Source: an uncultured Bacilli bacterium
Lineage (GTDB): Bacteria > Bacillota_I > Bacilli_A > RF39 > UBA660
Direction of reading: 5' to 3'
Assembly (NCBI GenBank): GCA_947624955.1
Contig: CANQMM010000011.1
Coordinates: 1-33,859, forward strand
DNA length: 33,859 nt
Of this stretch, positions 6,501 to 26,492 are shown piece after piece. The notes under the pieces were generated by a model. It was given only the letters and a program-made list of their open reading frames with translations. It made no database searches and had not been told where the DNA came from. The position numbers and the translations under genes are program-made. How positions within the stretch are numbered: position 1 is the stretch's first letter; each line of letters begins with the position of its first letter.

Positions 6501-7034
6501 GAAGATGTTTGTCATTGCTGTGGTAATGATGGTTTAGGTAATAGTTCTAGTGGTTCTAGTGGTAATGTTCATAGTTGGGGATTTGACTCAGAAGGGCATT
6601 TAACATTCTATTACCGGCCAGTATCTCTTACGGATCCATTCCCTAATAGTACGAATGGCAACTTATCTACTTCAAGAGATCTACCAGATAACTGGTCTAC
6701 AGATAAAGGGAAATTAGTTTATAATCGAATTACGAGTGAAGGAGAATTTGCTTATGAAGAACCGGAATATTCATATGTTTTAACTCCTACGGGAATGGCG
6801 AATATTCGTGAATATAATCGTCAACAAGAAAGTAATGAAGGATTTAATGATTTTACCCTAACGTGTAACGAATATGGCTATGATTGTGTAAGTACTTTCT
6901 TAAATAATTTTGATGAGATAGTTGGTTATGATGCTACAAAAGCAAGAAAAACTGACTTTGAACATTATGAAGAAGATGCGTTGCGATATGATGAAGGAAG
7001 ATTACCAACTGGGTTGGGGCCTTCAATGAAGTAG
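3525..7034 (+). CDS. Large Cys-rich secreted surface protein with a thioester-domain-like N-terminal region
   Basis: N-terminal hydrophobic signal, then SYCFDPQL...LVYLYQNAYP...ITDENVQYSITNAVARLLVFHSG (thioester-domain-like). Many Cys motifs; no LPXTG or C-terminal TM. TAATG overlap with the previous gene. Confidence 0.6.
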   Translation: MKVDTNKKINIFILCMALVVGLFSYMVLREPQSTYAVEDIPDTFDDVESVVMSIVKPADYCGNFTISAPPGTTDLNLGNKSKFHIYGAESQCAGDEAEYVSYCFDPQLSGPPDGDEYTDYVESRKIDPQSKQYTAAVKRFDTGLVYLYQNAYPNWNYNAYPGITDENVQYSITNAVARLLVFHSGFASNVESNGEKYKVYKYTTYYLDNGTCDGSGNTEECESKRWNADTNPDVYNIVKDLYEKSKNATIDDIWLHNFKIEEKATVGKTKVEETGEFTKKVKGTLSGLSSFDGDDPSKSYIKNLRVTCSDGVKCELLDEAGEKIDANTLLNKLGRDELTYTIVMSGNLKDIKTDSIEVKVNVDYFDNRDYGTAMITYSNSGSVTNIQRMLLFAKDTERGLEQTLKVSLCDIDISKFKDIEPVEEFYFNYCDKACYISNTLTPGKEDFDEEAFKANCCSTISANDPDYAKYCTFDCLNTYFPNTCDESSDKVEAHIIEGVEKETGRINYDYCVIDKDLSAVQEAPKKDLAGNDFALATGNVDLSNNRYCSVACIESWEFVLPGALVGGKNIIKAGTYFPISAQMKGTRTCVSNDIKYGSQGGQYKAGYFLYDLDNLNKQIVDAYNDWKYWDEAVKAPEQTGDEKTCASYSIGTCNDCGGVGQKACTSCCPGPSTINKNNQKKKEWEAEQYRYVASASNPGNGYVEQIANKKGKAAIGKWETSGDSCSNSCTWNAEDWKYLTANRDSAKALYESLVAERKQIIQEIQNCSSWENDYNFDPKLSYTYEEDYYMSKFVKNNNYFIAQVEDSELVAESDPPLYCQGSYANDYYECSGTSTSQKENKIEVNCSIGGGCSTATVTVPKNQNIKLTSAKEALYKPYTVYYAIHPNSDIDGRAVDLKDDKLTTGTVTRLGRVMPLRVTTPKGIYEYAFGFNQIGQYNDSDKDLGRLMNYTGGVTLPNGSELTVNSSFITTRPSVYNTINLKPSYECKYEVYEDVCHCCGNDGLGNSSSGSSGNVHSWGFDSEGHLTFYYRPVSLTDPFPNSTNGNLSTSRDLPDNWSTDKGKLVYNRITSEGEFAYEEPEYSYVLTPTGMANIREYNRQQESNEGFNDFTLTCNEYGYDCVSTFLNNFDEIVGYDATKARKTDFEHYEEDALRYDEGRLPTGLGPSMK

Positions 7035-7050
7035 AGAGAGGTGACAATAA

Positions 7051-8577
7051 ATGTCAGAATCTTATTGGGCTTATTGGCTGGTACTTTTGGGTGTAGTATT
7101 TACGGTAATTATGATGTTGATTCAGGGGGCAACAACATCTAATACTCAAGATTATTACCAATTGAAGGAAATAACTGAATCTTCAATTGTCGATTCAGTT
7201 GATTATGCCTATTATAGAATGTATGGAGAGTTAAAAATCAATAGAGAAAAGTTTGTGGAAAACTTTTTAAGAAGATTTGCGGAAACTGTTAGTATTACAA
7301 CGCAATATCAAATAGATTTTTATGATTTATATGAAGCTCCACCAAAAGTTAGTGTACGAGTAAAGAGTATGACTAATTCTTTAAATGTTATTGGTGATGA
7401 GACAAGTTTTGATATTGTTAATAAATTGGATGCTATCTTAGAGATGTCAGAAGATAATAGTCAATGTAGTTACTATACTGATGGTGGTGGAAGTTCAAAT
7501 AATAGCAGTCAAAATAACAACAGTAGTGGTAATAACGGTAATAGTGGAAATACTGCCAATGGAAATAATAATTCCGTTGAAGAAAATGAGGAAAATAACC
7601 AAAGTAGTGGGGGCAATACTGAGAATAATAATTTAACAACCAATGATTTTAATATTAGCCCTACTAAATTAGCCGTTTGTCAAGAAGGAATTACTGATAC
7701 TAGTTTAAAAGGAATGCACGGGACTTCAATGTCTAATAGTAGTGCAAGAAATAGAGTTTATGAAAACTATAAATTGACTAAAACAGTAGGGAATGTAGTG
7801 CCTGGTAAGGTTTTTGAAATATTAGGAGCAATTGGGCAGTATTGGGCCGTTGCTTACGATGATGCTTCTTGTGGTTGGGTAGATAGTACATATATGGCCA
7901 TTAATCTTAAAGAATATATTCCAGAAATGTCTTATAATATTACCAATGCCTCTAGTAGTATTTATATTTCTTCGGGGGTGGAATTACCAGGAGTTACGGG
8001 AAGACAATTATATAGTGATGAATATAAATCTTTTGTACCAGCTACTTTTAGCTTCGCCCAAAAATTAAAAGTCGCCGCTCAAGCAGCCAGTAGAGGCGGC
8101 GATAGATTAGTAGTTTATGATGCTTATCGTCCAGTGAAAGTATCTACAGTTGCTAAAAATTCTTTACAAGAATTATATAATTCTAATAAAACAGTTAAAG
8201 ATAATATTGATAAAAGCATCGGAGCTAGCGGTAGTACTTATAAATGGGGACAAAGTTGGTTTTTAGCGCAAAGTTTGTCAGCCCATAATACCGGGTGTGC
8301 CGTAGATGTAACGATTGCTGGAGCAAATATGCCATCAGCAATGCACGAACTAAGTGTTGCAGCAATTAAATATTATGATGCAATAAAGGTTCGAAATCAA
8401 CCACTTAGTTATCATTCTGAGCATTATGCAAAGAATATGACCGATGCTGCTAAACGCTTAGATAAATATATGACAGAAGCTGGGTTAGACGACTTAGCGA
8501 GTGAGTGGTGGCATTATCAATCAGATACTTGTCATAAGACAATTGGTACGGGATTGAATTTTTGGTCAGCTGTTTAA
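7051..8577 (+). CDS. Pilin-like/TadE-like N-terminus fused to an SH3-like domain and a peptidase M15 (VanX/DdpX-like) domain
   Basis: N-terminal TM plus stalk, N/S/G-rich linker, then YDAYRPVKV, SAHNTGCAVDVT and EWWHYQ, which match M15 Zn-peptidase motifs. Confidence 0.7.
   Translation: MSESYWAYWLVLLGVVFTVIMMLIQGATTSNTQDYYQLKEITESSIVDSVDYAYYRMYGELKINREKFVENFLRRFAETVSITTQYQIDFYDLYEAPPKVSVRVKSMTNSLNVIGDETSFDIVNKLDAILEMSEDNSQCSYYTDGGGSSNNSSQNNNSSGNNGNSGNTANGNNNSVEENEENNQSSGGNTENNNLTTNDFNISPTKLAVCQEGITDTSLKGMHGTSMSNSSARNRVYENYKLTKTVGNVVPGKVFEILGAIGQYWAVAYDDASCGWVDSTYMAINLKEYIPEMSYNITNASSSIYISSGVELPGVTGRQLYSDEYKSFVPATFSFAQKLKVAAQAASRGGDRLVVYDAYRPVKVSTVAKNSLQELYNSNKTVKDNIDKSIGASGSTYKWGQSWFLAQSLSAHNTGCAVDVTIAGANMPSAMHELSVAAIKYYDAIKVRNQPLSYHSEHYAKNMTDAAKRLDKYMTEAGLDDLASEWWHYQSDTCHKTIGTGLNFWSAV
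7486..7635 (+). repeat. Low-complexity Asn/Ser/Gly-rich linker-coding tract
   Basis: Translation SSNNSSQNNNSSGNNGNSGNTANGNNN... Confidence 0.7.
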
Positions 8578-8598
8578 TAAAAGAGAGGATGGAATAAA

Positions 8599-9393
8599 AT
8601 GGGAAATATTTTAACGCCTTTTAAAAGGTTTCTAAGTAATAAGAATACTGTAACGATATTGGGTGTTTTATTGGGTATTGTGGTATTGTATGTTGGATAT
8701 AATATGCGAGTTAAGGACGCGATAAATCCCGTTAGTGTTCCTTATGCTAAGCAAGAGATAGGACCAAGAACACAGATTACGGAAGATATGGTTGGTTTTA
8801 CTGATGTACCTAGTAGTATGTTAAAAAATAATGCCAATTTGATTCAAAATTCGCAAGATGTTATCGATAAATGGACAACTTTATCGACGACGATACCGGA
8901 GAATAGTTTATTTTATAAGTCAGCTATTGTGCCAGAGCAAGCACTACCGGATAGTGCCCTAGAAGGTCTAGCAGAGAATGACCGAATTTTAGCTATTCCA
9001 ATTTCTACGGAAGTTTCGACAGTTAATATTTTTGCTCCAGGAAATTATATTGATTTATTCTTAAAAGCTGTAGATGATGATGGAAAAGTTATCTTTGGAG
9101 AATTTATTAAGAGTATTCAAATAAGACAAGTAGTAGATAATGAAGGAAATGATGTTTTTCAATCGACTGATGCTGGGGATCCAGAAGACTTATTATTTGC
9201 GGTACCAATCGATTTATTCTATCTTTTAAATAGAGCAAAATTTATTACTTCCAATTCGATTGAAATAATTCCAGTACCAAGAGGGAGATCTTATTCAGCT
9301 AATCCATCAGAGACGGAAGTTTCAAGTGAATATTTATATTCATTTATTCAAAGAAAGGTAGCTATTATACCAGATCAAGATACAAACAATTAG
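8599..9393 (+). CDS. cpaB: Flp/Tad pilus assembly protein CpaB/RcpC-like (SAF domain)
   Basis: N-terminal TM then SVPYAKQEIGPRTQITEDMVGFTDVPSSML (SAF-like), LAIPISTEVSTVNIFAPGNYIDLFL; located directly upstream of cpaF/tadBC. Confidence 0.65.
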   Translation: MGNILTPFKRFLSNKNTVTILGVLLGIVVLYVGYNMRVKDAINPVSVPYAKQEIGPRTQITEDMVGFTDVPSSMLKNNANLIQNSQDVIDKWTTLSTTIPENSLFYKSAIVPEQALPDSALEGLAENDRILAIPISTEVSTVNIFAPGNYIDLFLKAVDDDGKVIFGEFIKSIQIRQVVDNEGNDVFQSTDAGDPEDLLFAVPIDLFYLLNRAKFITSNSIEIIPVPRGRSYSANPSETEVSSEYLYSFIQRKVAIIPDQDTNN

Positions 9394-9411
9394 GAGAAAG
9401 GGTGTTGAGCA

Positions 9412-10728
9412 ATGCATGATGCGGTTTTTGAACAGATGGACTTTGGCCCATTAAATGAATTCTTAGAAAATGATGATATTACCGATATATCTTATAGTAA
9501 TGGTGGGCAAGTATGGTTAAAAACTTTAACTAAAGGGGTTTATCAAGTAGAAAGACCAGAAATTAATGATGCCTTTATGGAAAAGCTAGCTTTCCAATGT
9601 TCAAATGTTATGGGTGTGACATTCAATATGGCGCATCCATTCTTGGATGCTGAGAGTGCCGAGTTGCGTATGAACTTTATTCACGACTCGATTGCCACAA
9701 ACGGCATTGCTTGCGTTGTGCGTAAAACACCCGCAAAAATTCGTTTAAATAAAGAGAAGTTATTAAGCGAAAAATATGTTACGGAAGATTTACATGACTT
9801 TTTAATTAAATGTGTCGAAGGACATTGTAACATTATTGTTAGTGGGGAGACTGGTTCCGGTAAAACTGAACTAGTTAAATATTTAGCTAGTCATACCAAA
9901 GAGAATGAAAAAATTATTACGATTGAGGATACTTTGGAATTGCACTTGGATAGAATATTTCCTCACCGTGATATCGTGGCAATGAAGACCAATAATATTG
10001 CTTCTTATTCCGATGTTTTGGTTACTTGTATGCGGCAGAACCCAATATGGATATTACTATCTGAAGTCCGTAGTGCTGAGGCAGTTCTAGCAGTACGTAA
10101 CTCGATTTCTTCAGGACACCACATTTTATCGACTATCCATGCCGATAAAGCAAGTAGTATCCCAATGCGTATGTATTCTTTACTCGAATCCAGTCAAGAA
10201 ATCGATCAATTTTTAAGTTCGATTCATCGTTATGTACAAATCGGTATCTATGTTAAAGGTTATTATTCAAAAGAATTAAATCGTTTTCAAAGAGAGATAA
10301 TAGAAGTTTGTGAATTCTATGTCGATGATGATAATGTAGCAAGAACTAATACGATTTATCGTAAGACGATGGATGGGAAGATAACTTTAAATAATCCGAC
10401 GAGTCATCTAATAGATTATTTGAATATTGGTAATGTATTCTTACCGGAAGATGTATTCCATTTAAATGATGGAGAAAGAAAAGAAGAAGGGGAAGTGAAG
10501 AATACATTAAATGATGTATTAAATAGTAATGTAGAAGAAACTTCTAGTGATGAGGGAGAAAATAATTCGGGGGAGACTTTAACTACTAATAATGATGTTG
10601 ATAATGGTCCAACATTTGTAGGGGGAATGTCCATTAATAGTGGGCAACCAATCAGTATCGAACCAATGAAAATTCAAGAAGTTAATAATATTGAACCAAT
10701 GGTAGTAAATAATATAGAAACTTTATAA
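9412..10728 (+). CDS. cpaF: CpaF/TadA-family (VirB11-like) secretion ATPase
   Basis: Walker A GETGSGKTELVK, TIEDTLELHL (Asp box), Walker-B region WILLSEVRSAEAV, GHHILSTIHAD (His box). Confidence 0.9.
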   Translation: MHDAVFEQMDFGPLNEFLENDDITDISYSNGGQVWLKTLTKGVYQVERPEINDAFMEKLAFQCSNVMGVTFNMAHPFLDAESAELRMNFIHDSIATNGIACVVRKTPAKIRLNKEKLLSEKYVTEDLHDFLIKCVEGHCNIIVSGETGSGKTELVKYLASHTKENEKIITIEDTLELHLDRIFPHRDIVAMKTNNIASYSDVLVTCMRQNPIWILLSEVRSAEAVLAVRNSISSGHHILSTIHADKASSIPMRMYSLLESSQEIDQFLSSIHRYVQIGIYVKGYYSKELNRFQREIIEVCEFYVDDDNVARTNTIYRKTMDGKITLNNPTSHLIDYLNIGNVFLPEDVFHLNDGERKEEGEVKNTLNDVLNSNVEETSSDEGENNSGETLTTNNDVDNGPTFVGGMSINSGQPISIEPMKIQEVNNIEPMVVNNIETL

Positions 10729-10743
10729 AAGGGGTGATAATAA

Positions 10744-11637
10744 ATGGAATTACCAATACTTTTGATTATTGCCATATTTGTAATTACTTACCGGATGAAT
10801 ACGGGTGATAATGTCTATAAATTTTTTAAAGATTCGGTAGCAGAAATTTATGATAAGTATGCCCCATATAGTTTTAAGCAAGTAAGAGAAAAAACTAAAG
10901 AGTTAGGTCAAGAATATACGGCTAAACAGTATATTGCGCAAGTAGTTATTTTTGCTACGGTAGCAGCTGCTATTGCTTATTTATATTTTTTCAGCATTAT
11001 ATGGGCAGCTTTATATGCTTTAGTAGCCGTGGCTTTTATCCCTTATTTGGCGTACTTAAGATGTCATAGGGTATATAGTGAATATTTATTTGAACAAATA
11101 CAAGTATATACTACTAATGTTATTATGGAATTTAATACGACGCAAAGTTTTGTTAAGTCCTTAGAGGGAGTTAGAGATTCAGGAGTACTTGAAGAGCCAG
11201 TCCTTGGAGATGTGAAAACGATGATTAAGATGGCTTATGATAATGGTACTATCGATGAAGCATTAGTATTCTTTAATGAAAAGTATCCTTACTATATGGT
11301 AAAGAATATGCATCAATTATTCTTACAAATTACGAAAGAAGGGGCTAAAGATTCCGGAGAAGCTCTAGAAAATATGGCGATGGATATCGATGCTTTAGTT
11401 GAAGGAGTTTACCGAGATAGAATGGATCGAGCTAATTTCCATAAAAGATTTGTTACTTTTGGTTTAATCTTATTTTTATTAGTTATGGCTATGCAATTTT
11501 TATTAGGAACTGATAGTTATATTGAGTTATTAGAAAAATGGTATGTCAAATTAATTCTGCATGCAATTATTATTATTAATAGTGTTTTCTTAATTACTGG
11601 AGAAAAATATTATAATGAGAATGTAGGTGTAGAATAA
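10744..11637 (+). CDS. tadB: TadB-like inner-membrane platform protein
   Basis: Polytopic protein with GspF/TadB-like cytoplasmic region, immediately downstream of the CpaF gene. Confidence 0.65.
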   Translation: MELPILLIIAIFVITYRMNTGDNVYKFFKDSVAEIYDKYAPYSFKQVREKTKELGQEYTAKQYIAQVVIFATVAAAIAYLYFFSIIWAALYALVAVAFIPYLAYLRCHRVYSEYLFEQIQVYTTNVIMEFNTTQSFVKSLEGVRDSGVLEEPVLGDVKTMIKMAYDNGTIDEALVFFNEKYPYYMVKNMHQLFLQITKEGAKDSGEALENMAMDIDALVEGVYRDRMDRANFHKRFVTFGLILFLLVMAMQFLLGTDSYIELLEKWYVKLILHAIIIINSVFLITGEKYYNENVGVE

Positions 11638-12425
11638 TGTATTGGGAGATATTAATATTTGGCATTATACTTTTATTTCTTTTAAATTTATCAGGACTTA
11701 TTAAAGCTAATAAATTTATTACGGATAATCAAATATATTTTCAACGACTAAAGGAAGATGATTGGGACTTCTTTGTTAAAGCTAAATATGGTGATGCCGT
11801 CGATCCCGATGTTTTATTTTCAAGGAGATTAAGGAATGCTTTCATCGTTATTGTCGTTTTGCTATTTGTCTTTTTAACTAATTTAAGCTATGTAAATGTC
11901 TTAATGACATTTGTTATCGGAGCTTTTGTTTTTAAGATGGATTATATGAATATTAAATCATATTATAAGCGACATTTACACGAAATAGATTCAATGTTAC
12001 CTCATTATTTAAAGGGGTTAGAAATCTTAATTCAACACTATACTGTACCAGTAGCGATTGGTAAATCAATCGATGATGCACCGGCCATATTTAGAGATGG
12101 CTTACAGGAACTTATTAATGCAATAAATGCTGGGGATTCCTCAATTGAGCCATATATGGAATTTGCTAGGACTTATCCAGTAAGAGATTCGATGCGGATG
12201 ATGCGTTTGTTATATCGTCTAAGTTTAGGACGACAAGAAAGAAAACAAGAACAATTACTGACTTTTTCCAAAACGATATCAAATTTACAACAAAAAGCTA
12301 GGGAGACAAGATATAAAGAGAGATTAGAGAAAATGGAAAATAAAACGATGAGTATGTTAATTACGACCGGTATAGGGGTTATGATTTTACTCGTTGTAGC
12401 AGTTTTAATGATGATGAATATGTAA
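11637..12425 (+). CDS. tadC: TadC-like inner-membrane platform protein
   Basis: TM pairs flanking a GspF-like region (LLYRLSLGRQERKQEQLLTFSKTI...); starts at the stop codon of tadB. Confidence 0.6.
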   Translation: MYWEILIFGIILLFLLNLSGLIKANKFITDNQIYFQRLKEDDWDFFVKAKYGDAVDPDVLFSRRLRNAFIVIVVLLFVFLTNLSYVNVLMTFVIGAFVFKMDYMNIKSYYKRHLHEIDSMLPHYLKGLEILIQHYTVPVAIGKSIDDAPAIFRDGLQELINAINAGDSSIEPYMEFARTYPVRDSMRMMRLLYRLSLGRQERKQEQLLTFSKTISNLQQKARETRYKERLEKMENKTMSMLITTGIGVMILLVVAVLMMMNM

Positions 12426-12496: not shown

Positions 12497-12739
12497 ATGA
12501 AAGAGGCAACTGGAGAATTAAATATGACAGTAATTACTGTAGTAGCAATAGCAGCAATTGCCGCATTCTTCTATGCTGTTATATGGCCAGCAATTAAAAC
12601 CAATTTATTAAATACAACTAAATGTAATAGTGCAGTATGTAGTTGTGATGCTGGAGCTAAAACCTGTAAATGTACTTATTTAGATGAAGAAGGAAACGAA
12701 GAAGAAATTACTTGTAAGAATCCAGATAAACAAAAATAA
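12497..12739 (+). CDS. Small Flp-pilin-like protein A with Cys-rich C-terminus
   Basis: MKEATG|ELNMTVITVVAIAAIAAFFYAVIWP leader plus TM, then CNSAVCSC...CKC...C. Confidence 0.55.
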   Translation: MKEATGELNMTVITVVAIAAIAAFFYAVIWPAIKTNLLNTTKCNSAVCSCDAGAKTCKCTYLDEEGNEEEITCKNPDKQK

Positions 12740-12761
12740 TTAAAGGAAGTGTTTTAGGAAA

Positions 12762-13001
12762 ATGAAGAGGGCTACCGGGGAATTAAATGCGACGTTAGTA
12801 GTTGTTACTTTGGTTGGATTGATGGCGGCTTTCTTCTTTTTTGTTTTGTGGCCAGAAGTAAAGAATATTTTTGTTAAGGATGCTAAATGTAGTGATGCAA
12901 TGTGTGATCGAAGTACAATAGATAGTAACGGAATGGTCGATTGTGTATATAAAGATGATGATGGGATAAAACACGATTTAAAGTGCGTATGGAAAGGATA
13001 A
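12762..13001 (+). CDS. Small Flp-pilin-like protein B, paralog of A
   Basis: MKRATG|ELNATLVVVTLVGLMAAFFFFVLWP, then CSDAMC...C...C; same layout as protein A. Confidence 0.55.
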   Translation: MKRATGELNATLVVVTLVGLMAAFFFFVLWPEVKNIFVKDAKCSDAMCDRSTIDSNGMVDCVYKDDDGIKHDLKCVWKG

Positions 13002-13008
13002 TTAGGGA

Positions 13009-13458
13009 ATGAAGGAAGCTATAGGTGGTGCTGGTATTTTGATATTTGCAATATTATTTATTCTTTTATTTGGTTCTTTTCTATCGGCTTCAGTTAATTA
13101 TTCTAAAGCTTTTAAAGTAAAAAATGAAATAGTAAATATTATTGAAAGAGAAAAGGGCGTTAATGATGCCACTTTAGAAAAAATATATGATTATATGACA
13201 GAAGTAGGTTATCGTACAACAGGAAACTGTGATGATGGTAATTGGAAAGGTTATAATACCAATTCTAAAGGTGATACATATCGTAATCCGATGATATGTA
13301 TTGATACGGTTAATGTCAATGGTAATTCTGTTGATGCTGTACCAACAGCTTATTATAAAGTAAGAGTATTTTATAATATGGATATACCAATATTTCAATC
13401 AGCTTTTCATTTTAGAATAGAAGGGACTACGAAAAAGATTATTTTTCCTAAAGCTTAA
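13009..13458 (+). CDS. TadE-like minor pilin/pseudopilin
   Basis: MKEAIG plus TM, NYSKAFKVKNEIVNIIEREKG, C-terminal YYKVRVFYNMDIPIF...FRIEGTTKKIIFP shared with the next gene. Confidence 0.5.
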   Translation: MKEAIGGAGILIFAILFILLFGSFLSASVNYSKAFKVKNEIVNIIEREKGVNDATLEKIYDYMTEVGYRTTGNCDDGNWKGYNTNSKGDTYRNPMICIDTVNVNGNSVDAVPTAYYKVRVFYNMDIPIFQSAFHFRIEGTTKKIIFPKA

Positions 13459-13476
13459 AGAGAAAGGAGTAGGAGT

Positions 13477-13986
13477 ATGCGGGAGTCAATAGGAATGACT
13501 TGGGTTTTTCAAATAATGTTAGTATTCATTTTATTATTTGCCGGTTTTTTAGCAATATATATTAATTTTTCTAAAACTTATAAAATTAAAAATGAAGTAC
13601 TTAACTTTATAGAGAAAAAAGAGGGTATGACTGATGGCATCGCTTCTAATCCGGGATCAATTAAGTTAATAACTAATTATTTAAAAACCCATAATTATGG
13701 TACTACCGGAGTATGTCCCAACGATGCGGGCTGGTATGGAGCAAAAGCATTGAATGGCAATTTATCAGATCTAACTGAAGCAATAAAAGGGGAAAAATAT
13801 TATTATTGTGTAAGAAAAGTAGACAGTAATGATAATAAGAATCCTAATAAAGTATTTTATGAAGTACGGGTATTTTTTAAATTTGATTTACCAGTATTTG
13901 GTAATTTACATACTTTTTCAATCGAAGGAGAAACTGTGGATATAGATTTTCCCGCAGATAATTTGGTGGTTGCACCAGCAGACTAA
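13477..13986 (+). CDS. TadE-like minor pilin/pseudopilin, paralog of the preceding gene
   Basis: MRESIG plus TM, NFSKTYKIKNEVLNFIEKKEG, C-terminal YEVRVFFKFDLPVF...FSIEGETVDIDFP. Confidence 0.5.
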   Translation: MRESIGMTWVFQIMLVFILLFAGFLAIYINFSKTYKIKNEVLNFIEKKEGMTDGIASNPGSIKLITNYLKTHNYGTTGVCPNDAGWYGAKALNGNLSDLTEAIKGEKYYYCVRKVDSNDNKNPNKVFYEVRVFFKFDLPVFGNLHTFSIEGETVDIDFPADNLVVAPAD

Positions 13987-14000
13987 TAGGAGTGATATAG

Positions 14001-15047
14001 ATGAATGTAATAGTAGCTAATAAATATGTAGCAATGTTATCTAATTTAAATATTGATTTAATTAAGAGTATGACGGGTGAATTTGAGGTTGATGATTTAA
14101 TTAATACCTTTGATAATTTTTTCTTTAATAAGATGATTTTAGATATTACGGCGGTTAAGAATTATCAAGATATCGAAACAATTCAAAAGTTATCTTTTGG
14201 TTTAGATATGAGTAAAGTTATATTATTACTCGATGATTCTAATGTAGTAAATTCGCCTAATTATTTATCACAATTAGTTAGTATGGGTATTTATAACTTT
14301 ACGAGAAATATCGATACCATTGCTTATTTAATTGATAATCCTAATACTTATAAAGATGTGGCTCAATTTCAACAACTAAGTGCGGGAGTTGGACATAATG
14401 AAGGATTTAGTAGTCACGGGGGGAAAGGCGATAAGTTTATCAATGATAATGTAATAATGCGTGGATTTGGGGGAACAAGGGTAATTGGTTTTAAAGATTT
14501 AACTGACCACGCGGGAGCGACAAGTTTAATTTATATGATAAAAAAACAAGCGGAGGTTAAATTTAAGGTATTGGCTGTAGAAGTAGATAAAAATGATTTT
14601 GTCTATTTGAATGATGGGGATTTAAGAAGTGTTAGTACGGCGGAATTACCATCAATTATTAAGAATCCTAATAGCGATTATGATATGATTTTAGTCGATT
14701 TAAACAGTAGTCCAGAAGAAAAGAATATAGGAGAAGTATTATATTTAATTGAACCATCGACGATTAAATTAAATAAAATGATTAGAAGAGACCGCAATAT
14801 TTTAGATAAATTACGGAATATGAAAATAATATTAAATCAATCTTTACTTAATGATATCGATGTAAAAGATTTTGAATATGAAGCTAAGTGTAAAGTATTT
14901 TTCAATATGCCACCTTTAGATGATAAGAAAGAACAGCATAAAGCAATCGATGATTTAATAAGTTTATTGGGCTTTGGACAAAAACAACCAGTTAGTAAGA
15001 AAACTAATAGAGGGGGAAGTTTCTTTCAGATAGTTAAAGATGAATAA
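14001..15047 (+). CDS. TadZ/CpaE-like (ParA/MinD-fold) protein with degenerate P-loop
   Basis: Receiver-like N-terminal half and ParA-like C-terminal half (RVIGFKDLTDHAGATSLIYMI, YDMILVDLNSSPEE, MKIILNQSL); position within the Tad block. Confidence 0.5.
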   Translation: MNVIVANKYVAMLSNLNIDLIKSMTGEFEVDDLINTFDNFFFNKMILDITAVKNYQDIETIQKLSFGLDMSKVILLLDDSNVVNSPNYLSQLVSMGIYNFTRNIDTIAYLIDNPNTYKDVAQFQQLSAGVGHNEGFSSHGGKGDKFINDNVIMRGFGGTRVIGFKDLTDHAGATSLIYMIKKQAEVKFKVLAVEVDKNDFVYLNDGDLRSVSTAELPSIIKNPNSDYDMILVDLNSSPEEKNIGEVLYLIEPSTIKLNKMIRRDRNILDKLRNMKIILNQSLLNDIDVKDFEYEAKCKVFFNMPPLDDKKEQHKAIDDLISLLGFGQKQPVSKKTNRGGSFFQIVKDE

Positions 15048-15070
15048 TTATGTAAATTGACATATTTTAC

Positions 15071-15099
15071 TTGACTTTTAAGGGGATAATCTATAAAAT
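15071..15099 (+). promoter_or_regulatory. Internal sigma-A promoter for the 104-aa VirB2-like gene
   Basis: TTGACT (15071-15076), 17-nt spacer, TAAAAT (15094-15099). Confidence 0.6.
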
Positions 15100-15123
15100 G
15101 ATTATGTAAGAAGGAGTGGTTTT

Positions 15124-15438
15124 ATGAGTCTTGGTTTTTGTACTAAAACTAAATCTATATGGAAATTAGTTGGGAAAGTATTTTTCATTTTCAAGATTGT
15201 TATACCTCTATTAATTATTTTATTTGGAATGATTGATTTAGGTAAGGCAGTTGTAGCAGCAAAGGATGACGAAATTAAGAAGTCAGTTAAGTCATTAGCA
15301 ATGCGTGCTGTTGCCGGTGTAGTAATATTCTTTATCCCAACATTAGTCGGATTTATTTTCGGAATAGTAGATGAGTTTGATGAAGTAACTAGTGACTATG
15401 ATATATGTGCTAAATGTGTTAGTTCATGGAATTGCTAA
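15124..15438 (+). CDS. Small two-TM VirB2/TrbC-like pilin candidate
   Basis: Two TM segments (VGKVFFIFKIVIPLLIILFGMIDLGKAVVAAKDDEIKKSVKSLAMRAVAGVVIFFIPTLVGFIFG) in a VirB2-type layout. Confidence 0.55.
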   Translation: MSLGFCTKTKSIWKLVGKVFFIFKIVIPLLIILFGMIDLGKAVVAAKDDEIKKSVKSLAMRAVAGVVIFFIPTLVGFIFGIVDEFDEVTSDYDICAKCVSSWNC

Positions 15439-15453
15439 TAAATAAGATAATTT

Positions 15454-15484
15454 AAACAATATTTATTTAAATATTGTTTTTTTT
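15454..15484 (+). terminator. Intrinsic terminator between the two VirB2-like genes
   Basis: Perfect 11-bp stem aaacaatattt/aaatattgttt followed by an uninterrupted T-run. Confidence 0.85.
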
Positions 15485-15485
15485 A

Positions 15486-15494
15486 TGGTATAAT
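15486..15494 (+). promoter_or_regulatory. Extended -10 promoter
   Basis: TGGTATAAT immediately after the terminator and upstream of the next CDS. Confidence 0.5.
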
Positions 15495-15507
15495 TTCTCT
15501 GTATGAG

Positions 15508-15930
15508 GTGTTTTTTATGAAATACGGATATATTTTATTATTGGCAGTGTTATGTAGTTTTACTTTAGTAATAAAAACACAAGCTTTAGAAATAGCCAAA
15601 TATGCTAGTGTTAGTTTAGCGGAAACAACCACTCAAAGAAGTACTAATTGTAAAGCAGTATTAGGGGATCCTAAAGATGAAAATTCTTTTGCTCATTTAT
15701 TACAAGATATATTTGATGTTATTAAATTTGCTACACCAATACTAGTTCTAGCTTTAACTATTGTGGAATATGCCAAAGTTATTGCTAGTAGTGATAAAGA
15801 TCAGATTGTTAAAGCTAATAAAAAGACTATTCAGAGAATAGTTTGGGGAGTAGTTCTTTTCTGTATTCCGATTTTATTGAATTATTTATTTGATTTATTA
15901 GGTATGTATGGTACTTGTGGTATTAGCTAG
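15508..15930 (+). CDS. VirB2/TrbC-like membrane protein with signal peptide
   Basis: Signal peptide followed by two TMs (FDVIKFATPILVLALTIVEYAKVIASSDKDQIVKANKKTIQRIVWGVVLFCIPILLNYLFDLLG), similar layout to the preceding gene. Confidence 0.55.
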   Translation: MFFMKYGYILLLAVLCSFTLVIKTQALEIAKYASVSLAETTTQRSTNCKAVLGDPKDENSFAHLLQDIFDVIKFATPILVLALTIVEYAKVIASSDKDQIVKANKKTIQRIVWGVVLFCIPILLNYLFDLLGMYGTCGIS

Positions 15931-15941
15931 GGGGTGAGTTT

Positions 15942-18290
15942 GTGTTATTTGATTTTGGTGAATCTATTTGGAAAATATTCGTTGGTATATTTTTACTAAT
16001 TGATGGAATTATTTATGGTTTTATTGATAAATGTTATCAATTATTTATGGCTCTAGCTTCAGCAAGAATTCTATCTAATGATGCTATCCAAACATTTGCA
16101 AATCGGGTATATATAATTGTCGGAGTGGTTATGTTATTTGTTCTTTCTTATTCAATATTGTCAACGATTGTTAATCCCGATAACACAAATAAAGGAAATT
16201 CAGGAGCAGGGAAGATATTGCAAAAAATTGTAATAGCAGTAATTTCTTTAGCAGTGGTTCCTTCTGTGTTTAACTTTTTGTATCGTATTCAAGATGTAAT
16301 GTTAAGTCAAAATGTTATTGGCAAAATTATTTTAGGGGGATTTGAAAGCAAAGCTAATGGGCAAACGATCACCGGGGCTACTTTACAAGCAACAGATGCT
16401 GAAGGTAATGTTACGGGAAGTTTTTCAGCGGGAACGTATACTTTCGATGAAACTGAAGCAGTATATGAAGCGGGCGGAAAAAACCTAGCAGTGGAAACTT
16501 TTACACCTTTTTTCCAGCCACTTGGTAATCCTGATGAAATAACTGCTCACACAGCTAACTATGTAGCAAATCCAACTCTTGTTAGTGCTGGAGGATGGCT
16601 TTGTGCGGCTTCTTTAATCGGTTCAGGGGTAGCCACAGTATTGTCAGCGGGCGGAGCTTCGATTTTTTTGGCGGCATCAGTAGGTCATTGTATTATTAAT
16701 CGTGGTGTTGCCGCTGCAAACACTGTTTCGGATATACTAAGTGGAAGAGAAACTAGTTATACAGAAGTTATGGCGGCCGCTGCCGGTGGCGATTGGCATC
16801 TTTTATCAATGTTGGCCGAAAATGTCGTTAATAATGAAATCGATTATACATTTATTATCTCATCAATTGTGGGAGCATTTATCGTTTACGTTTTAGTATC
16901 ATTTTGCTTAGATTTAGGAGTTCGAGCAGCTAAATTAGCTTATTTCCAAATGATAGCACCAATTCCAATACTGATGAATATCTTGCCAAAAGGAGATAAG
17001 GTATTTAGTACGTGGACGAAGAAAACAGTTAATACTTTTTTAGAGGTATTTATTCGAGTGTTAATTATTTATTTTGTAATATATTTAATAGCAACTTTAC
17101 CGGATTTAACTGGTGATTTCTGGGTCAACCCATTTAGTAATAGTCAAGTTATATTACCATCTAGTGGAGTAAAATTATTTGCTAAAGTGTTTATTATTTT
17201 AGGTTTAATTGTCTTTGCTAAACAAGCACCAAAATTAATTAGTGAGATGTTCGGTATTGATGGTGGAGGAATTAAACTTGGTATTCGCGAAAAACTTGCT
17301 GATGCGGGAGTTATGCGTGGAGCTGCAGCCATTGGCGGTGGATTACAAACAGCAGTTAGAAACTTTAATAATCAAAAAGGATGGCGAAGATTTACTAGTG
17401 CCGCAGCAGGTTTAGGTAGTGGTGCTGTAAGAGGATTTAATGGAGCCAAAGATGCGAAAACCTTCAGTGCGATGAATAAAGCAAGAGCCGAAGCGGTGGC
17501 TAAAGCGGAAGCTAGAAGAAATCAGCGAACTGAGAGAAGAAATTATCTTAATACAATGACTGATGAAGATGGTAATCAAGTTGGATGGTTAGAAGCTCGA
17601 GCAATCAACGCAAGAGATAATATTAAATCTTGGGCTGGTAGAGGACCAAGTACCGCGGCTTATGATATGTACGATAAGATTCAAAAACAAGAAAAAGCTA
17701 TTAAGGATGCGACAGCCGAGATATTTAGTAAATATGATAAGAAAGATTTCTTAATAAATATGGCGCGAGGAGACTTTAAAGGTGATAACGCTGATGCAGC
17801 TTTTGCAATGTATCAAAGATATATTGAAGGTTATGGTATGTCTTATAAGGAAGCGGAAGCGAGACTTAAACAAATGCAAGCTGAAAATATGTCGGGTAGA
17901 TCTGAAGCGGAACAAGTTCAACATGCGAGAGATGTTCAAGCAATGGAATCAATGTTAGCACAGTTGAAGAAAAACAGTATTTTAAAATTGGAAACAGATA
18001 TCTACAACAATCGTAATGCAACTGATTTAAGAGGTACGGTGTTAGATGGTGTTAAGATAGATGAAGTAAGAGATATTTCTTCAAAAATCAATGTATTTGC
18101 TGATGAGTTTAATCGTAGTGGTATAAATACAAGTGCCGATGGTAATACAACAATCAACTTTAATGCGGGAGATGCCGGTAAGTCGAGCGATGATATCGCT
18201 ACTGAAATGGGTCGATACAAGACTAAGATATCGCGAGAAATTGAAAGACAAAAACAACGAGAAGCAGCAACTAAGGGAGATAAGAAGTAA
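15942..18290 (+). CDS. VirB6/TrbL-like polytopic T4SS membrane protein with long charged C-terminal tail
   Basis: GTG start; N-terminal TMs, extracytoplasmic insertion, central TM bundle (IISSIVGAFIVYVLVSFCLDLGVRAAKLAYFQMIAPIPILMNILPKG), helical charged tail. Confidence 0.65.
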   Translation: MLFDFGESIWKIFVGIFLLIDGIIYGFIDKCYQLFMALASARILSNDAIQTFANRVYIIVGVVMLFVLSYSILSTIVNPDNTNKGNSGAGKILQKIVIAVISLAVVPSVFNFLYRIQDVMLSQNVIGKIILGGFESKANGQTITGATLQATDAEGNVTGSFSAGTYTFDETEAVYEAGGKNLAVETFTPFFQPLGNPDEITAHTANYVANPTLVSAGGWLCAASLIGSGVATVLSAGGASIFLAASVGHCIINRGVAAANTVSDILSGRETSYTEVMAAAAGGDWHLLSMLAENVVNNEIDYTFIISSIVGAFIVYVLVSFCLDLGVRAAKLAYFQMIAPIPILMNILPKGDKVFSTWTKKTVNTFLEVFIRVLIIYFVIYLIATLPDLTGDFWVNPFSNSQVILPSSGVKLFAKVFIILGLIVFAKQAPKLISEMFGIDGGGIKLGIREKLADAGVMRGAAAIGGGLQTAVRNFNNQKGWRRFTSAAAGLGSGAVRGFNGAKDAKTFSAMNKARAEAVAKAEARRNQRTERRNYLNTMTDEDGNQVGWLEARAINARDNIKSWAGRGPSTAAYDMYDKIQKQEKAIKDATAEIFSKYDKKDFLINMARGDFKGDNADAAFAMYQRYIEGYGMSYKEAEARLKQMQAENMSGRSEAEQVQHARDVQAMESMLAQLKKNSILKLETDIYNNRNATDLRGTVLDGVKIDEVRDISSKINVFADEFNRSGINTSADGNTTINFNAGDAGKSSDDIATEMGRYKTKISREIERQKQREAATKGDKK

Positions 18291-18772
18291 TGTATGTTGA
18301 TGAAAGAGAAGTAAACTCGTATAGAAGAATAACAGAGTTAATAAATGATTTATCGAGAACTTTAGAAAGTTATATCAGCGAAAATGGTAATAGTAGTTAT
18401 GCTGTTATTAATTTAAATGGTAATCGACTTACTCTACGGGAAGTGCAGATATTGATAAATGGTTTAAAAAGAAGTACTTCGATAGAAGATGCAAGGAGAA
18501 TGGTTCAATTAGAAAAACAGTTAGAAGAATTAATTAGGATAGTGAAAACAAAATTAATGATGGCTTCTTATACGGATAGTGATTTAAGTGAAATAAAAAG
18601 AGTGTTAGAAGCACTAACTACTCAATTACGGTATGGGAGAGATTTACCGGTGATAAGAGCTAACGAAAAAAGTAATTGGCGGTCTCTAACTTGGGATGAT
18701 GTAGAAAGAATCCAAAGACAGATAAGTAATAGACAAGTGGAATTACAAAGTAAAAGAGGATATAGATTTTAA
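18290..18772 (+). CDS. Predicted helical cytoplasmic protein of unknown function, T4SS-associated
   Basis: No TM; overlaps the VirB6-like stop codon (TAATG); charged helical composition. Confidence 0.5.
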   Translation: MYVDEREVNSYRRITELINDLSRTLESYISENGNSSYAVINLNGNRLTLREVQILINGLKRSTSIEDARRMVQLEKQLEELIRIVKTKLMMASYTDSDLSEIKRVLEALTTQLRYGRDLPVIRANEKSNWRSLTWDDVERIQRQISNRQVELQSKRGYRF

Positions 18773-18789
18773 AAAGTGGGTGATTAAAA

Positions 18790-19128
18790 GTGAATAGGTA
18801 TTTAATACCAGCAAACTCGAAGAAGTCGATGTTAATACTAGGATTTTTTACTCCTTTTGATTTAGTAATCTTTGGAGTAGGAGTAGCTTTTACATTAGGA
18901 ATGTTATTCTTGATAAAAGCAAGTAATATGTGGATGTTATTATTAATGCTGTCACCGGCATTAATTACGGCATTTTTGGTAATGCCAGTTCCGCATTATC
19001 ATAATGTAATGACATTACTAGGAAATATCTATAGATTTTATACTGGTAGAAGAGAGTATTATTGGAAAGGTTGGTGTGTGTGTGATGATTCAGAAAGAAG
19101 AAATGGCAGCAGGCGTAAAAACTTCTAG
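18790..19128 (+). CDS. PrgI/VirB3-like T4SS membrane protein
   Basis: GTG start; IPANSKKSMLILGFFTPFDLVIFGVGV, two TMs, C-terminal RFYTGRREYYWKGW motif; located immediately before virB4. Confidence 0.65.
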   Translation: MNRYLIPANSKKSMLILGFFTPFDLVIFGVGVAFTLGMLFLIKASNMWMLLLMLSPALITAFLVMPVPHYHNVMTLLGNIYRFYTGRREYYWKGWCVCDDSERRNGSRRKNF

Positions 19129-19663
19129 TAAATATACGGAAGATTGGTTACCAATTAAACAAATTATGAATGGGATGATTCAGCTAGATAATGGTTACTA
19201 TGTAACGGGGATAAAAATAGCGCCGAAGAATATTTTTATTCTCGATCAAGGAACGCAAGATGCCATAATATTTAATCTAAGAAATTTTTATAATATGTTA
19301 GATTATGAGTTTTGGTTAGTAATAGCTGATAGACCTGTAGATATTAATATCTATTTATCCCAATTACAGTTATTATATTCCAAGACCAATAGTGGAATTA
19401 TTAGAAAGTTAGTTATGCAAGATATCAACAAAGCAAATATGTTTATGGGAGCTGAGTATAACGTAGTCGATACGGAGTATTACATCTTATTTAAAGAGAA
19501 GAAATTAGAAGTAATTCAAAAGCGTATTCATAATATGATTAGTGCGTTAGCTAATTGTTCGCTTAATTCAACCCAAATATCGAATGCCGATATTCGAATG
19601 CTACTCGATAATTTCTTAAATGGGGGAGTTAAATCAACTTTAGGGACGGTGATGCCAGTATGA
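19076..19663 (+). CDS. VirB4 N-terminal domain as a separate protein
   Basis: WLPIKQIMNGMIQLDNGYYVTGIKIAPKNIFILDQ resembles the N-terminal region of VirB4/TraE ATPases; ATGA overlap with the ATPase gene. The true start may be 19085 or 19103. Confidence 0.6.
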   Translation: MCVMIQKEEMAAGVKTSSKYTEDWLPIKQIMNGMIQLDNGYYVTGIKIAPKNIFILDQGTQDAIIFNLRNFYNMLDYEFWLVIADRPVDINIYLSQLQLLYSKTNSGIIRKLVMQDINKANMFMGAEYNVVDTEYYILFKEKKLEVIQKRIHNMISALANCSLNSTQISNADIRMLLDNFLNGGVKSTLGTVMPV

Positions 19664-21444
19664 GTATCAAAAGTGAAATAGCTCCTAAGGGGTTAAATTT
19701 TAAACCGACAGAATTTATGATTGGTGATAAGTATGCAACAATATTGACGGCCATATCTTATCCAAAATATATCGATTATGGGTATCTATCGAATATTACG
19801 AATATTTCAGGCGTTAAAATTGTGGCTAAACATATACCAATAGAGTTTTCCACTTTACAAAAGATGTTAAATAAAGAAATTGCCGATTTGAAAATGCGTT
19901 ATCAAACGGAGAATGATAAAACTACGCAAGAAAGAATTCGGCAGGATTATGAATCTTTGGAACAATTTATTTCGATGCTAGCAGCAACGCAAGCCAGGAT
20001 TTTTGATTTTCAGTTACATATGATGATTATTGCGGATAATCAAGAAGAGTTGGAAATGAAAAAGATGCAATTACGGAGTTATATCGATGCTTTGGGAATG
20101 AGTGCAGTTCCTTTAATGTTCGAACAAGAAAAAGTTTTGAAATCAATTATTCCAATATTTCCTAAACAGGATATTGAAAGTAGAATTGGGACACCGATAC
20201 CATCAGTTACTATCGCGGCGATGTATCCTTTTGTCTTTGATAGTGTTAAAGATCCGGAAAATGCGATGTTATTAGGAGTCGATTTCTCCGGTGGGGTTGT
20301 CTTATTTAATCAATTCTTATATAAAATTAAAAGAGAACACAATCGCAATAATGCCAATATGATTATTCTAGGTACTTCTGGTAGTGGGAAATCGACAGCT
20401 GCAAAGTTATTGTTGCGAAGCCATATTAGAAATGGATATAAAGTAGTAGCTATCGACCCAGAAGGCGAACTAGAAGAAATGTGCAAGACATTGAACGGTA
20501 GCTTCCTCGATTTAGGTAAAGGCGGCGAGTTTGGGATGATTAATCCCTTAGAAATCGTTGTCGATGCTGATGAAGAGGAGATAGCCCAAGGATTGGGATA
20601 TACGGTATTAACAAGAACGATTCAATCTTTAAAAGCTTTTATGAAGTATTATTCACCTTCAATTGAAGATGATGTCTTAACGATGTTTAGTGAAGTAGTT
20701 CAAGATACTTATAAACGTTTTAAAATCGATTATGATACGGATTATCGGTCACTTACTTCGCAAGATTATCCAACTTTTGATGAGGTTTATGATACAATCA
20801 AAGGGCGTTTATTATCGATGCCGGAGAAGACACACGAACGCGATATCATGGAAAGATTGGAACTTAAAGTTCGACCATTAGTTAAAGAATTAAGATATTA
20901 TTTTACAGGTCATACGACTTTAAAAATTGATAGTGATTTAATTGTATTTAATATTAAAGAGTTAATGACAGCTGATGAGAATATTCGTAACGCTTTATTC
21001 TTTAATATCCTTAAATATGCTTGGGGACTTTGTCTTGATAAAGAAGTGACTTCGGTATTATCCGTTGACGAAGCCCACGTGTTATTATCTAGTCATAATG
21101 AGTTAGGAGCTGAGTTCTTAGCCCAAATTCAAAGAAGAAGTAGAAAGTATAATGCGGGAACAATTATTATTACACAACAACCAACCGATTTTGCTGCTCC
21201 TAATTTAATAATGCATGGAAAAGCGATATTCGATAATGCTTCTTATTATTTAATAATGGGACTTAAGAAACAAGCTATTGAAGATTTAAGCTTATTAATC
21301 GATTTAAATGAGAATGAAATGGATGGTATAAAATATTATAATCAAGGTGAAGCCTTATTTGTTTGTGGTAGTAGGAGAATGCGCATAAGGATTATATGTA
21401 CCCAAGAAGAATTAGATTCTTTTGGTGCTGGTGGCGGATTATAA
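19660..21444 (+). CDS. virB4: VirB4-family T4SS ATPase
   Basis: Walker A GTSGSGKSTAAKLLLRS, VVAIDPEGELEE, Walker B VTSVLSVDEAHVLL, QIQRRSRKYNAGTIIITQQPTDF. Confidence 0.9.
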   Translation: MSIKSEIAPKGLNFKPTEFMIGDKYATILTAISYPKYIDYGYLSNITNISGVKIVAKHIPIEFSTLQKMLNKEIADLKMRYQTENDKTTQERIRQDYESLEQFISMLAATQARIFDFQLHMMIIADNQEELEMKKMQLRSYIDALGMSAVPLMFEQEKVLKSIIPIFPKQDIESRIGTPIPSVTIAAMYPFVFDSVKDPENAMLLGVDFSGGVVLFNQFLYKIKREHNRNNANMIILGTSGSGKSTAAKLLLRSHIRNGYKVVAIDPEGELEEMCKTLNGSFLDLGKGGEFGMINPLEIVVDADEEEIAQGLGYTVLTRTIQSLKAFMKYYSPSIEDDVLTMFSEVVQDTYKRFKIDYDTDYRSLTSQDYPTFDEVYDTIKGRLLSMPEKTHERDIMERLELKVRPLVKELRYYFTGHTTLKIDSDLIVFNIKELMTADENIRNALFFNILKYAWGLCLDKEVTSVLSVDEAHVLLSSHNELGAEFLAQIQRRSRKYNAGTIIITQQPTDFAAPNLIMHGKAIFDNASYYLIMGLKKQAIEDLSLLIDLNENEMDGIKYYNQGEALFVCGSRRMRIRIICTQEELDSFGAGGGL

Positions 21445-21461
21445 AATAGGAAAAGGAGTGG

Positions 21462-23345: not shown

Positions 23346-23357
23346 AAAGGGGATTAT

Positions 23358-24065: not shown

Positions 24066-24077
24066 TGAAAAATTATG

Positions 24078-24086
24078 TGGTATAAT
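24078..24086 (+). promoter_or_regulatory. Extended -10 promoter for virD4
   Basis: TGGTATAAT, same element as at 15486-15494, 25 nt before the ATG at 24111. Confidence 0.5.
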
Positions 24087-24110
24087 ATCCCTAGTGTTTG
24101 GTGGTGAATT

Positions 24111-26492
24111 ATGAAATTTAGAATATCGTCAAAGGACTTATTAATTTTTGCAATATTTTGTATTTTACTTTTATATTTATGTGCAATTGGAGTTTTGAAT
24201 TTTGCAAGCATTGGTAATGATGGAACTTTTGCCGGACTTAATCCCTTTCCAGCATTTGGGCCAAAGTATTTACCGGTAACTTTAATTTTGTTTTTTATCG
24301 CTTTAATTATCATTTTTACGAGTGTTTCTTCGTATATTTTTGATAAGGAGAAGGGCTCGGGAATCGGAATTAAAGTTGGAGAAAAGAAAGAAAAGGGTTA
24401 TTCAAGATGGGCTAAAGAAAAAGAGATTAAGGAAGATAGAGATGTAGCGATGGTAAGACCAGAGATGGTCGATAGTGATGTAGCAGGTATTCCTTTAATC
24501 AATAACGGTAAAGAAATATGGATTGATAATGGGGAGTATCATAATTTAGTAATTGGTGCTACCGGTAGTGGTAAATCAGAAACGATAGTTAAACCGCTTT
24601 TAAATATTCTTGCGAAAAAGGGCGAAAGTATGATTGTTACTGACCCTAAAGGTGAATTATATAAATCGAGTGCGGAATATTTAAAAAGTAGAGGTTATAA
24701 GATTATTGTCTTAAATTTCCGGGAACCGCAACATGGTAATGCTTGGAATCCCCTTACTTTACCTTATCAATATTATAAAGAGGGTAATAGTGATAAATCG
24801 ACAGAGTTACTAGAAGACGTAGCATTAAATATCTTGTATGATCCGAATAATAAAGGAGAGCCATTCTGGGAGAAGAGTGCATCCGATTATTTCTCAGGGT
24901 TAACTGTCGGGTTATTTGAGGATGCTAAGGAAAATGAAATTAATTTAAATTCTATCAACTATATTAGTACAGTTGGGGAAGAAAAATTTGCCGCGAGTAA
25001 TTTTATTAAAGAGTACTTTACTTTAAAGGGTGAATCTTCTAATGCTTATGTATTTGCTTCAGCTACTATTAATGCGCCGGCCGATACTAAGGGTGGTATT
25101 TTAGCGATATTTAGACAGAAGATTAGATTATTTGCTTCCCGAGAAAATTTAAGTGAAATGTTATCCCATAGTGATTTTGATATGCGAAATATTGGTCGGG
25201 AAAAAACGGCGGTATTCATTATCATTCACGATGAAAAGACAACATATCACAGTTTAGCAACGATCTTTATAAAACAATGCTATGAATCATTAATCGATGT
25301 TGCCCAAGAAAATGGTGGTAAATTACCATATAGAACTAATTTTATCTTGGATGAGTTTGCCAATATGCCACCACTTAAAGATGTAACAACGATGGTTACA
25401 GCTGCCCGAAGTAGAGCGATTAGATTTACCTTTATAATCCAAAACTATGCCCAATTAAAGCAAGTTTATGGTAATGAAAATGCCGAGACGATTAAAGGTA
25501 ACTGCGGTAATTTAATCTATTTAATTAGTACCGAATTAGCAGCTTTGGAAGAAATTAGTAAAATGTGTGGGGAAGTTAAATCTAGCGAAAAAGATAAAAC
25601 GGCGAGTACGCCGCTTGTTACCGTTACCGATTTACAAAAGCTCCAGTTATTTGAAGCGATAATTATTAGATGGCGTTTATCACCATTTCAAACGAAGTTG
25701 ACACCAAACTTTAAAATGACTTGGGACCATAATTTTGGTTTAGCAGAATATCCGGTGAGAGAAAAAGAAGAAATCAAGCTATTTGAATTAAAAGATTTCG
25801 TTAAGGAAAAGAAAAGACAAAAGATGTTGAATTCACTAGCTACGACGGATGGACCAAAGAAAGATGGGGAATTAAATGTGCCATTAGGTAACGGCTTACC
25901 TATGGAGCCGCCTAAACCTTTTGGGGGATTTGGCGAAGGCAATAAAAATTTTGATTTAGATGCCATGATGCGTGATATCGATAAAAAGATTGCCGAATTA
26001 GATGCCGAAGAAGCAAGGCAGAAAGAACTTTTGGAAAAGAAGAAAGCGCCAACTAAACAGGTTGAAGTACCTAGCTTAAAGCAAGAAGAAAAACCAATGG
26101 TTAATAATTTCAATATCTATAATGAATTTGAAAATAAACCATTAGAAGAAGTAAGGCCAAAGGACGAAGCACCTAAACAAGTAGATATGTTGACTAATTT
26201 ACCAAAACCAGCAGAGATAAAAGAAGGCATTGATTTAGAAACGACTTTGGAGTTACCAAAAGTTGAAGTACCAATTAACGAAGAACCACCAAAAGCTGTA
26301 GAGCCACCGGTTATTACGGAATTACCAAAAGTAGATAGCAATTTACCTAAAGAAGAAGTAAAAAGTTCACAAGTCGAAGAGGTTAAAGAAAATAAGCCAA
26401 AAGTCAATATCGATGTTGATAGTGTCATCGTCGATGATAATGTCGTTAGTGATGATGAATTCTTCGATGACTTCTTTGGGGATGATTATTAA
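24111..26492 (+). CDS. virD4: VirD4/TraG-family type IV coupling ATPase
   Basis: Two N-terminal TMs, Walker A GATGSGKSETIVKPLL, TDPKGELYKSS, FILDEFANMPPLKDVTTMVTAARSRAIRFTFIIQNYAQL. Confidence 0.9.
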   Translation: MKFRISSKDLLIFAIFCILLLYLCAIGVLNFASIGNDGTFAGLNPFPAFGPKYLPVTLILFFIALIIIFTSVSSYIFDKEKGSGIGIKVGEKKEKGYSRWAKEKEIKEDRDVAMVRPEMVDSDVAGIPLINNGKEIWIDNGEYHNLVIGATGSGKSETIVKPLLNILAKKGESMIVTDPKGELYKSSAEYLKSRGYKIIVLNFREPQHGNAWNPLTLPYQYYKEGNSDKSTELLEDVALNILYDPNNKGEPFWEKSASDYFSGLTVGLFEDAKENEINLNSINYISTVGEEKFAASNFIKEYFTLKGESSNAYVFASATINAPADTKGGILAIFRQKIRLFASRENLSEMLSHSDFDMRNIGREKTAVFIIIHDEKTTYHSLATIFIKQCYESLIDVAQENGGKLPYRTNFILDEFANMPPLKDVTTMVTAARSRAIRFTFIIQNYAQLKQVYGNENAETIKGNCGNLIYLISTELAALEEISKMCGEVKSSEKDKTASTPLVTVTDLQKLQLFEAIIIRWRLSPFQTKLTPNFKMTWDHNFGLAEYPVREKEEIKLFELKDFVKEKKRQKMLNSLATTDGPKKDGELNVPLGNGLPMEPPKPFGGFGEGNKNFDLDAMMRDIDKKIAELDAEEARQKELLEKKKAPTKQVEVPSLKQEEKPMVNNFNIYNEFENKPLEEVRPKDEAPKQVDMLTNLPKPAEIKEGIDLETTLELPKVEVPINEEPPKAVEPPVITELPKVDSNLPKEEVKSSQVEEVKENKPKVNIDVDSVIVDDNVVSDDEFFDDFFGDDY

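Follow-up and report, generated by a model that had tools for sequence, protein, structure and literature searches.

A conserved N-terminal hexapeptide ending in glycine in the pilin-like proteins of a divergent Tad-type operon of uncultured Bacilli

In type IV filaments, processing by an A24 prepilin peptidase is seen as both essential and defining. For prepilin processing, the glycine is the critical residue, while Glu5 is dispensable, and the known prepilin leaders range from 6 to 26 amino acids, with 6 in PilA of P. aeruginosa (PMC4471445). Many, though not all, known pilins carry Glu or Asp at +5 (PMC10191384), and the standard motif of the detection tool PilFind is [GAS]-X4-[DE] (PMC3244431). 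Two type IV filament machines, the MSH pilus and the mitochondrial type II secretion system (T2SS), have own loci or genomes without a prepilin peptidase; MSH genomes always carry an A24 peptidase from another system (PMC6668835). In Clostridia (Roseburia, Ruminococcus and Eubacterium), DUF5411/CpaF operons were predicted to be secretion-related (PMC9523054). The literature search found no paper on the pilins or the leader class described here, on a coupling of Tad to type IV secretion system (T4SS) genes, or on Tad-like loci in a bacterial family that lacks A24 peptidases.

The window analyzed here, i.e., the whole stretch of 33,859 nucleotides from an uncultured Bacilli bacterium, contains a single run of genes on the plus strand, comprising a DUF5411/M15 gene, a CpaB-like gene, tadA, tadB- and tadC-like genes, four pilin-like genes (p1 to p4), a gene at the TadZ position and T4SS genes (Table 1). 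The T4SS part consists of a PF18895 pilin, a PrgI-like protein, VirB4, a SpoIID-domain protein and VirD4, and therefore includes both ATPases by which a T4SS is recognized. The Tad-like part shares with the Tad (type IVc) pilus and its Flp, TadE and TadF pilins the ATPase, the two platform proteins (assigned as TadB and TadC by position and membrane character, and kept in relatives), the CpaB-like protein, a small Flp-like pilin of 50-90 aa with longer minor pilins, and the monoderm organization of the locus without a secretin. In contrast to the Tad pilus, the pilins of the window have neither Glu+5 nor the Flp E-Y motif and carry a fixed, conserved leader of six residues; the operon has no TadV gene, A24 being missing from the whole window, and adjoins T4SS genes. 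The TadA of the operon and the canonical TadA encoded elsewhere in the genome share only about 26% identity. A short leader ending in Gly, a hydrophobic helix and a predicted helix-plus-sheet minor pilin are shared with type IVa and T2SS pilins with class III signal peptides; unlike these, the pilins of the window miss the PilFind motif (PMC3244431) and the Flp-like pair is polar from +1 to +5. The Clostridia operons likewise combine a CpaF-type ATPase, a platform protein and a DUF5411 protein, but in another lineage, and the available part of that report (PMC9523054) contains neither an analysis of the pilin leader nor the T4SS coupling seen here.

Table 1. Features of the Tad-like operon and the adjoining T4SS genes (positions in the window).
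Feature	Position	Strand	Evidence
DUF5411 (PF17424) and M15 peptidase domain protein	7051..8577	+	Pfam, ortholog starts, AF2 of the first 150 aa
RcpC/CpaB-like protein	8599..9393	+	weak, PF16976 E 0.02
TadA/CpaF-like ATPase	9412..10728	+	T2SSE E 5e-28
TadB-like platform protein	10744..11637	+	position and membrane character; no Pfam match
TadC-like platform protein	11637..12425	+	position and membrane character; no Pfam match
p1, Flp-like small pilin, 80 aa, starts MKEATGELNMTVITVV	12497..12739	+	Shine-Dalgarno-like stretch, orthologs (alignment A1), no Pfam family
p1 hexapeptide MKEATG, candidate class III leader	12497..12514	+	conserved in ortholog N-termini
p2, second Flp-like pilin, 79 aa, starts MKRATGELNATLVVV	12762..13001	+	Shine-Dalgarno-like stretch, orthologs (A1)
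p2 hexapeptide MKRATG	12762..12779	+	ORF N-terminus, ortholog N-termini
p3, minor pilin-like (TadE/F position), 149 aa, MKEAIG	13009..13458	+	orthologs, AF2 model
p3 hexapeptide MKEAIG	13009..13026	+	ORF N-terminus, DNA pattern count
p4, minor pilin-like, 169 aa, MRESIG	13477..13986	+	orthologs
p4 hexapeptide MRESIG	13477..13494	+	ORF N-terminus, DNA pattern count
Conserved gene, TadZ-like by position alone	14001..15047	+	no Pfam match
T4SS pilin PF18895, opens the adjoining T4SS part	15124..15438	+	E 3e-6
VirB4-like ATPase	19660..21444	+	PF19044 E 1e-12
VirD4-type coupling protein	24111..26492	+	PF02534 E 2.5e-57

The gene order is retained in about 30 genomes from about as many genera of the window's family. 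Concerning how widespread this class of pilins is, a question raised in the preliminary description, the operon proved to be widespread in this Bacilli family and at least 468 p1 relatives could be confirmed in the contigs searched. The 80 loci with p1 relatives that were listed are labeled as uncultured Bacilli, "Tenericutes", Erysipelotrichaceae and similar, with a few bins labeled differently. The junction at which the Tad-like genes pass into the T4SS genes (PF18895 pilin, VirB4, VirD4; 14001-26492 in the window) is conserved across the family and was likewise observed in two loci of other families (L066 and L070). Upstream of the Tad-like genes, a large secreted Cys-rich protein (3525-7034), possibly an adhesin or cargo, is encoded, which is weakly conserved in relatives. 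Further downstream, a short ORF at 29672-29974 appears to duplicate the 3′ part of the ORF at 28663.

The preliminary description had reported four consecutive ORFs with the N-termini MKEATG, MKRATG, MKEAIG and MRESIG, and these are present as described, each preceded by a Shine-Dalgarno-like stretch. At the DNA level the motif was searched as ATG-MRN-GAR-KCN-AYN-GG, a pattern that covers three of the four genes because MKRATG has no E3. The pattern was observed three times in the window, with 0.00 occurrences expected from shuffles. The 1.17 Mb genome has four matches in all, the fourth of which lies in frame within a helicase ORF. According to these counts, the hexapeptide is a property of the p1-p4 operon and a chance motif could be ruled out. 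Since the codons used for it differ between p1 to p4, selection acts on the protein. An artefact of start codon prediction was also ruled out by the Shine-Dalgarno-like stretches and by the tag being kept across orthologs despite codon changes.

Gly6 was found in 154 of 161 distinct Flp-like N-termini, many of which form a biased set as they were collected via the leader itself, and in 133 of 140 distinct minor-pilin N-termini. In loci fetched by TadA instead, it is present in 33 of 35 Flp-like and 39 of 43 minor pilins. Seven apparent exceptions starting with MTV were left out of the N-terminus counts, as they are internal starts from gene calling. The expectation that the leader Gly is conserved in orthologs was therefore confirmed, and, as is typical of class III signals, a hydrophilic leader with Gly (or Ala) as its last residue precedes a hydrophobic helix. 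The leader as a whole is conserved but not invariant as had been proposed: the motif in orthologs is M-[KR]-[EQDA]-[AST]-x-G, with about 95% Gly6. The non-Gly residues among the 301 distinct N-termini are Ser (10), Glu (2), Lys (1) and Asn (1), and position 3 is Glu in 148 of 161 Flp-like and 94 of 140 minor-pilin N-termini. At L151:3974-4240, a further Flp-like gene encodes a protein whose N-terminus is longer and altered, MNEATKNSGMTVATGQLNTTVV. The absence of Glu at +5 holds for the whole set, as none of the 301 N-termini has Asp or Glu at this position, so that all fail the PilFind motif; acidic residues are completely missing from positions 8-26. Other properties ascribed to the leader had to be revised. 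With 6 aa it is not unusually short, this being the length in PilA of P. aeruginosa and within the known range (PMC4471445), and the hydrophobic helix follows Gly6 directly in p3 and p4 but not in p1 and p2, where a polar E-L-N-[MA]-T intervenes.

The canonical Flp pilins of the second Tad locus in the window's family served as a control. Here, length and sequence of the leader vary around a constant cleavage site, G/QALVEY or G/QALTEY (the slash marks the cleavage site), in 11 of 11 sequences. The divergent pilins thus keep the whole leader, whereas the canonical ones keep only the cleavage site.

As to pilin identity, p1 to p4 occupy the pilin slots of the Tad-like operon, in agreement with their original designation as pilin-like, although no Pfam pilin family covers them: neither Flp nor TadE/F was among the matches listed for members of the pilin alignments A1 and A2. 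A PDB sequence search with alignment A2 yielded noise alone. An AF2 model of p3 (41 homologs, pLDDT 90) consists of helices at residues 3-47 and 53-66 and four strands, and this predicted order of elements is that of a type IV pilin, while Foldseek found no significant match to the model in the PDB (none below E 0.48). Operon context, conservation and the predicted p3 fold assign p1 to p4 to a divergent Tad-family machine, p1 and p2 as its small Flp-like pilins and p3 and p4 as its TadE/F-like minor pilins. That they instead serve the adjoining T4SS as small accessory membrane proteins would agree with the continuation of the operon into T4SS genes and the missing Pfam and PDB matches, but is highly improbable, as the genes sit between those for TadC-like and TadZ-like proteins and corresponding genes in similar order occur in the compact locus of a second family, which is free of T4SS genes. 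The DUF5411 protein of the operon is a probable fifth pilin-like subunit. Its orthologs begin with M-K-E-S-[YFM]-W-[GA], i.e., with Trp at position 6, followed in most cases by Gly or Ala, and the AF2 model of the first 150 aa (long N-terminal helix and strands, pLDDT 79) resembles p3 at lower confidence. From this start and the pilin-like predicted architecture, DUF5411 may be a pilin family.

The search for a prepilin peptidase suggested in the preliminary description revealed one A24 gene (PF01478) in the genome. This sole copy adjoins a PilC-like gene. The same contig carries, at a distance of 14 kb, a separate canonical Tad locus (L068:11753-17313), which encodes Flp (SG/QALVEY), TadE (KG/QALVEF) and TadF (KG/QTLVMF). 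With a profile of 26 A24 sequences, the peptidase was detected in 274 of 292 genomes of the window's family (≥90% complete). The window-type TadA is retained in 11 of the 18 A24-less genomes, and since the absence is mostly sporadic and most of these genomes have an A24-positive sister species, assembly gaps are the simplest explanation for it. Nothing can be concluded from the co-occurrence of A24 and the operon within the family, since the canonical Tad and T4P-like (PilB/PilC) loci also use A24 and already account for its presence.

An A24 peptidase, as class III processing demands, is available in the window's genome. It is missing from almost all genomes of f7, a distant family within the class. 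The compact locus of f7 encodes a DUF5411-like protein, TadA, TadB, TadC, a minor pilin of 113 aa and a small Flp-like pilin, and recurs in the 30 loci read (L067, L069, L111-L138; e.g., L128, reverse complement 5180-9813). In many of them an acyl carrier protein gene follows. TadA (E ≤ 1e-30) was found in 112 of 123 f7 genomes, but A24 in only three, using the same 26-sequence profile. As 120 genomes lack the peptidase, among them the single-contig, 99% complete genome G267 with an intact locus L128 (Flp MSEIKGQFLG), assembly gaps were ruled out as the cause, and the archaeal-type peptidase PF06847 scored nowhere above the cut-off in 30 f7 genomes. With the Walker A motif GK[ST] of the TadA-type ATPase kept in 30 of 30 loci examined, the locus shows no obvious decay. 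In contrast to the MSH pilus (PMC6668835) and to mitochondria, which are not bacteria (PMC10128026), most genomes of a bacterial family lack A24 here.

The Flp-like pilins of f7 start with M-[SG]-E-x-[KN]-G-Q in 23 of 23 aligned sequences, and at the place corresponding to Gly6 the minor pilin varies among G, S, A and T. Gene order and the common M-x-E-x-x-G-[QE]-[LA] suggest homology to the window's pilins. TadA is 26-32% identical between the families, and between the Flp-like pilins hhalign aligned no more than the initial eight residues, at low probability; since this match is so short and weak, homology of the pilins rests mainly on operon position and motif. Measured from the membrane helix, G-[QE]-[LA] has the same position in canonical Flp (G/QALVEY), compact-locus Flp (G-Q-L-L) and the window pilins (G-E-L-N). 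Gly6 probably corresponds to the glycine at the class III cleavage site of Tad pilins, profile-profile comparison being only suggestive in this respect.

Because the genome has one A24 peptidase, encoded beside PilC and near a separate canonical Tad locus, cleavage of the candidate Gly6 site in trans by this enzyme is the best single reading and, on balance, somewhat probable. The conserved operon in about 30 relatives with its strong preference for Gly6, otherwise mostly Ser, the canonical Tad loci with G/Q sites in this genome and other family members, and the pilin-like p3 model speak for it, as do the presence of A24 in most genomes of the family and the critical role of Gly in processing, for which Glu5 is dispensable (PMC4471445). 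The pilin N-terminus would be inserted with the tag on the cytoplasmic side, and the A24 peptidase would most likely cut after Gly6. TadA, TadB and TadC would then polymerize the subunits without the Glu5 salt bridge, and Glu+1 of the Flp-like pilins may, more speculatively, replace Glu5 in charge neutralization. The rest of the tag (M, K/R, E3, A/S4) would have to serve beyond cleavage, e.g., in platform recognition, as the leader is more conserved than cleavage requires. The paralogs with E6 or N6, which should not be cut, the lack of a significant PDB or Pfam match and the very similar tag in the A24-less family count against cleavage. As the Flp-like pilin of f7 keeps this motif while A24 is missing in almost all genomes, conservation of the Gly alone is no proof of processing.

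The compact locus and the conserved Flp motif of the almost A24-less f7, together with the conserved whole leader, the Ser, Glu and Asn paralogs, the varied residue in the f7 minor pilins and the empty PF06847 search, lend some plausibility to a retained hexapeptide on unprocessed subunits, a possibility that is less probable than cleavage in trans. The N-terminus with E3 and a small residue 6 would be part of the filament or dock on TadB, TadC or TadA, and Gly6 would serve helix packing. However, f7 is distant and its pilins align weakly, prepilin processing is considered indispensable in both bacteria and archaea (PMC10128026), and the strong preference for Gly is most simply a cleavage signature. 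A so far unrecognized non-A24 peptidase that cuts after Gly6, in the A24-less family if not more widely, would also explain the motif conserved there, and a precedent was proposed for the mitochondrial T2SS, which lacks GspO and may rely on a different protease instead (PMC10128026); the Pfam scan of the compact-locus genes (L067) revealed no candidate, and this explanation appears unlikely. The wider proposal that a Bacilli branch of Tad-type machines assembles without A24 and keeps the short tag on the mature subunit, the window operon being its T4SS-linked member, is tentative and rather doubtful.

The pilins of a widespread gut-type lineage carry an unusual leader, one that a search with the standard pilin motif would overlook. 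In a second bacterial family, the Tad-like locus is almost universal and A24 almost universally absent; these pilins would be either assembled unprocessed or cut by another protease. The coupling to T4SS genes, not described in the literature found, suggests a pilus-assisted export or transfer machine.
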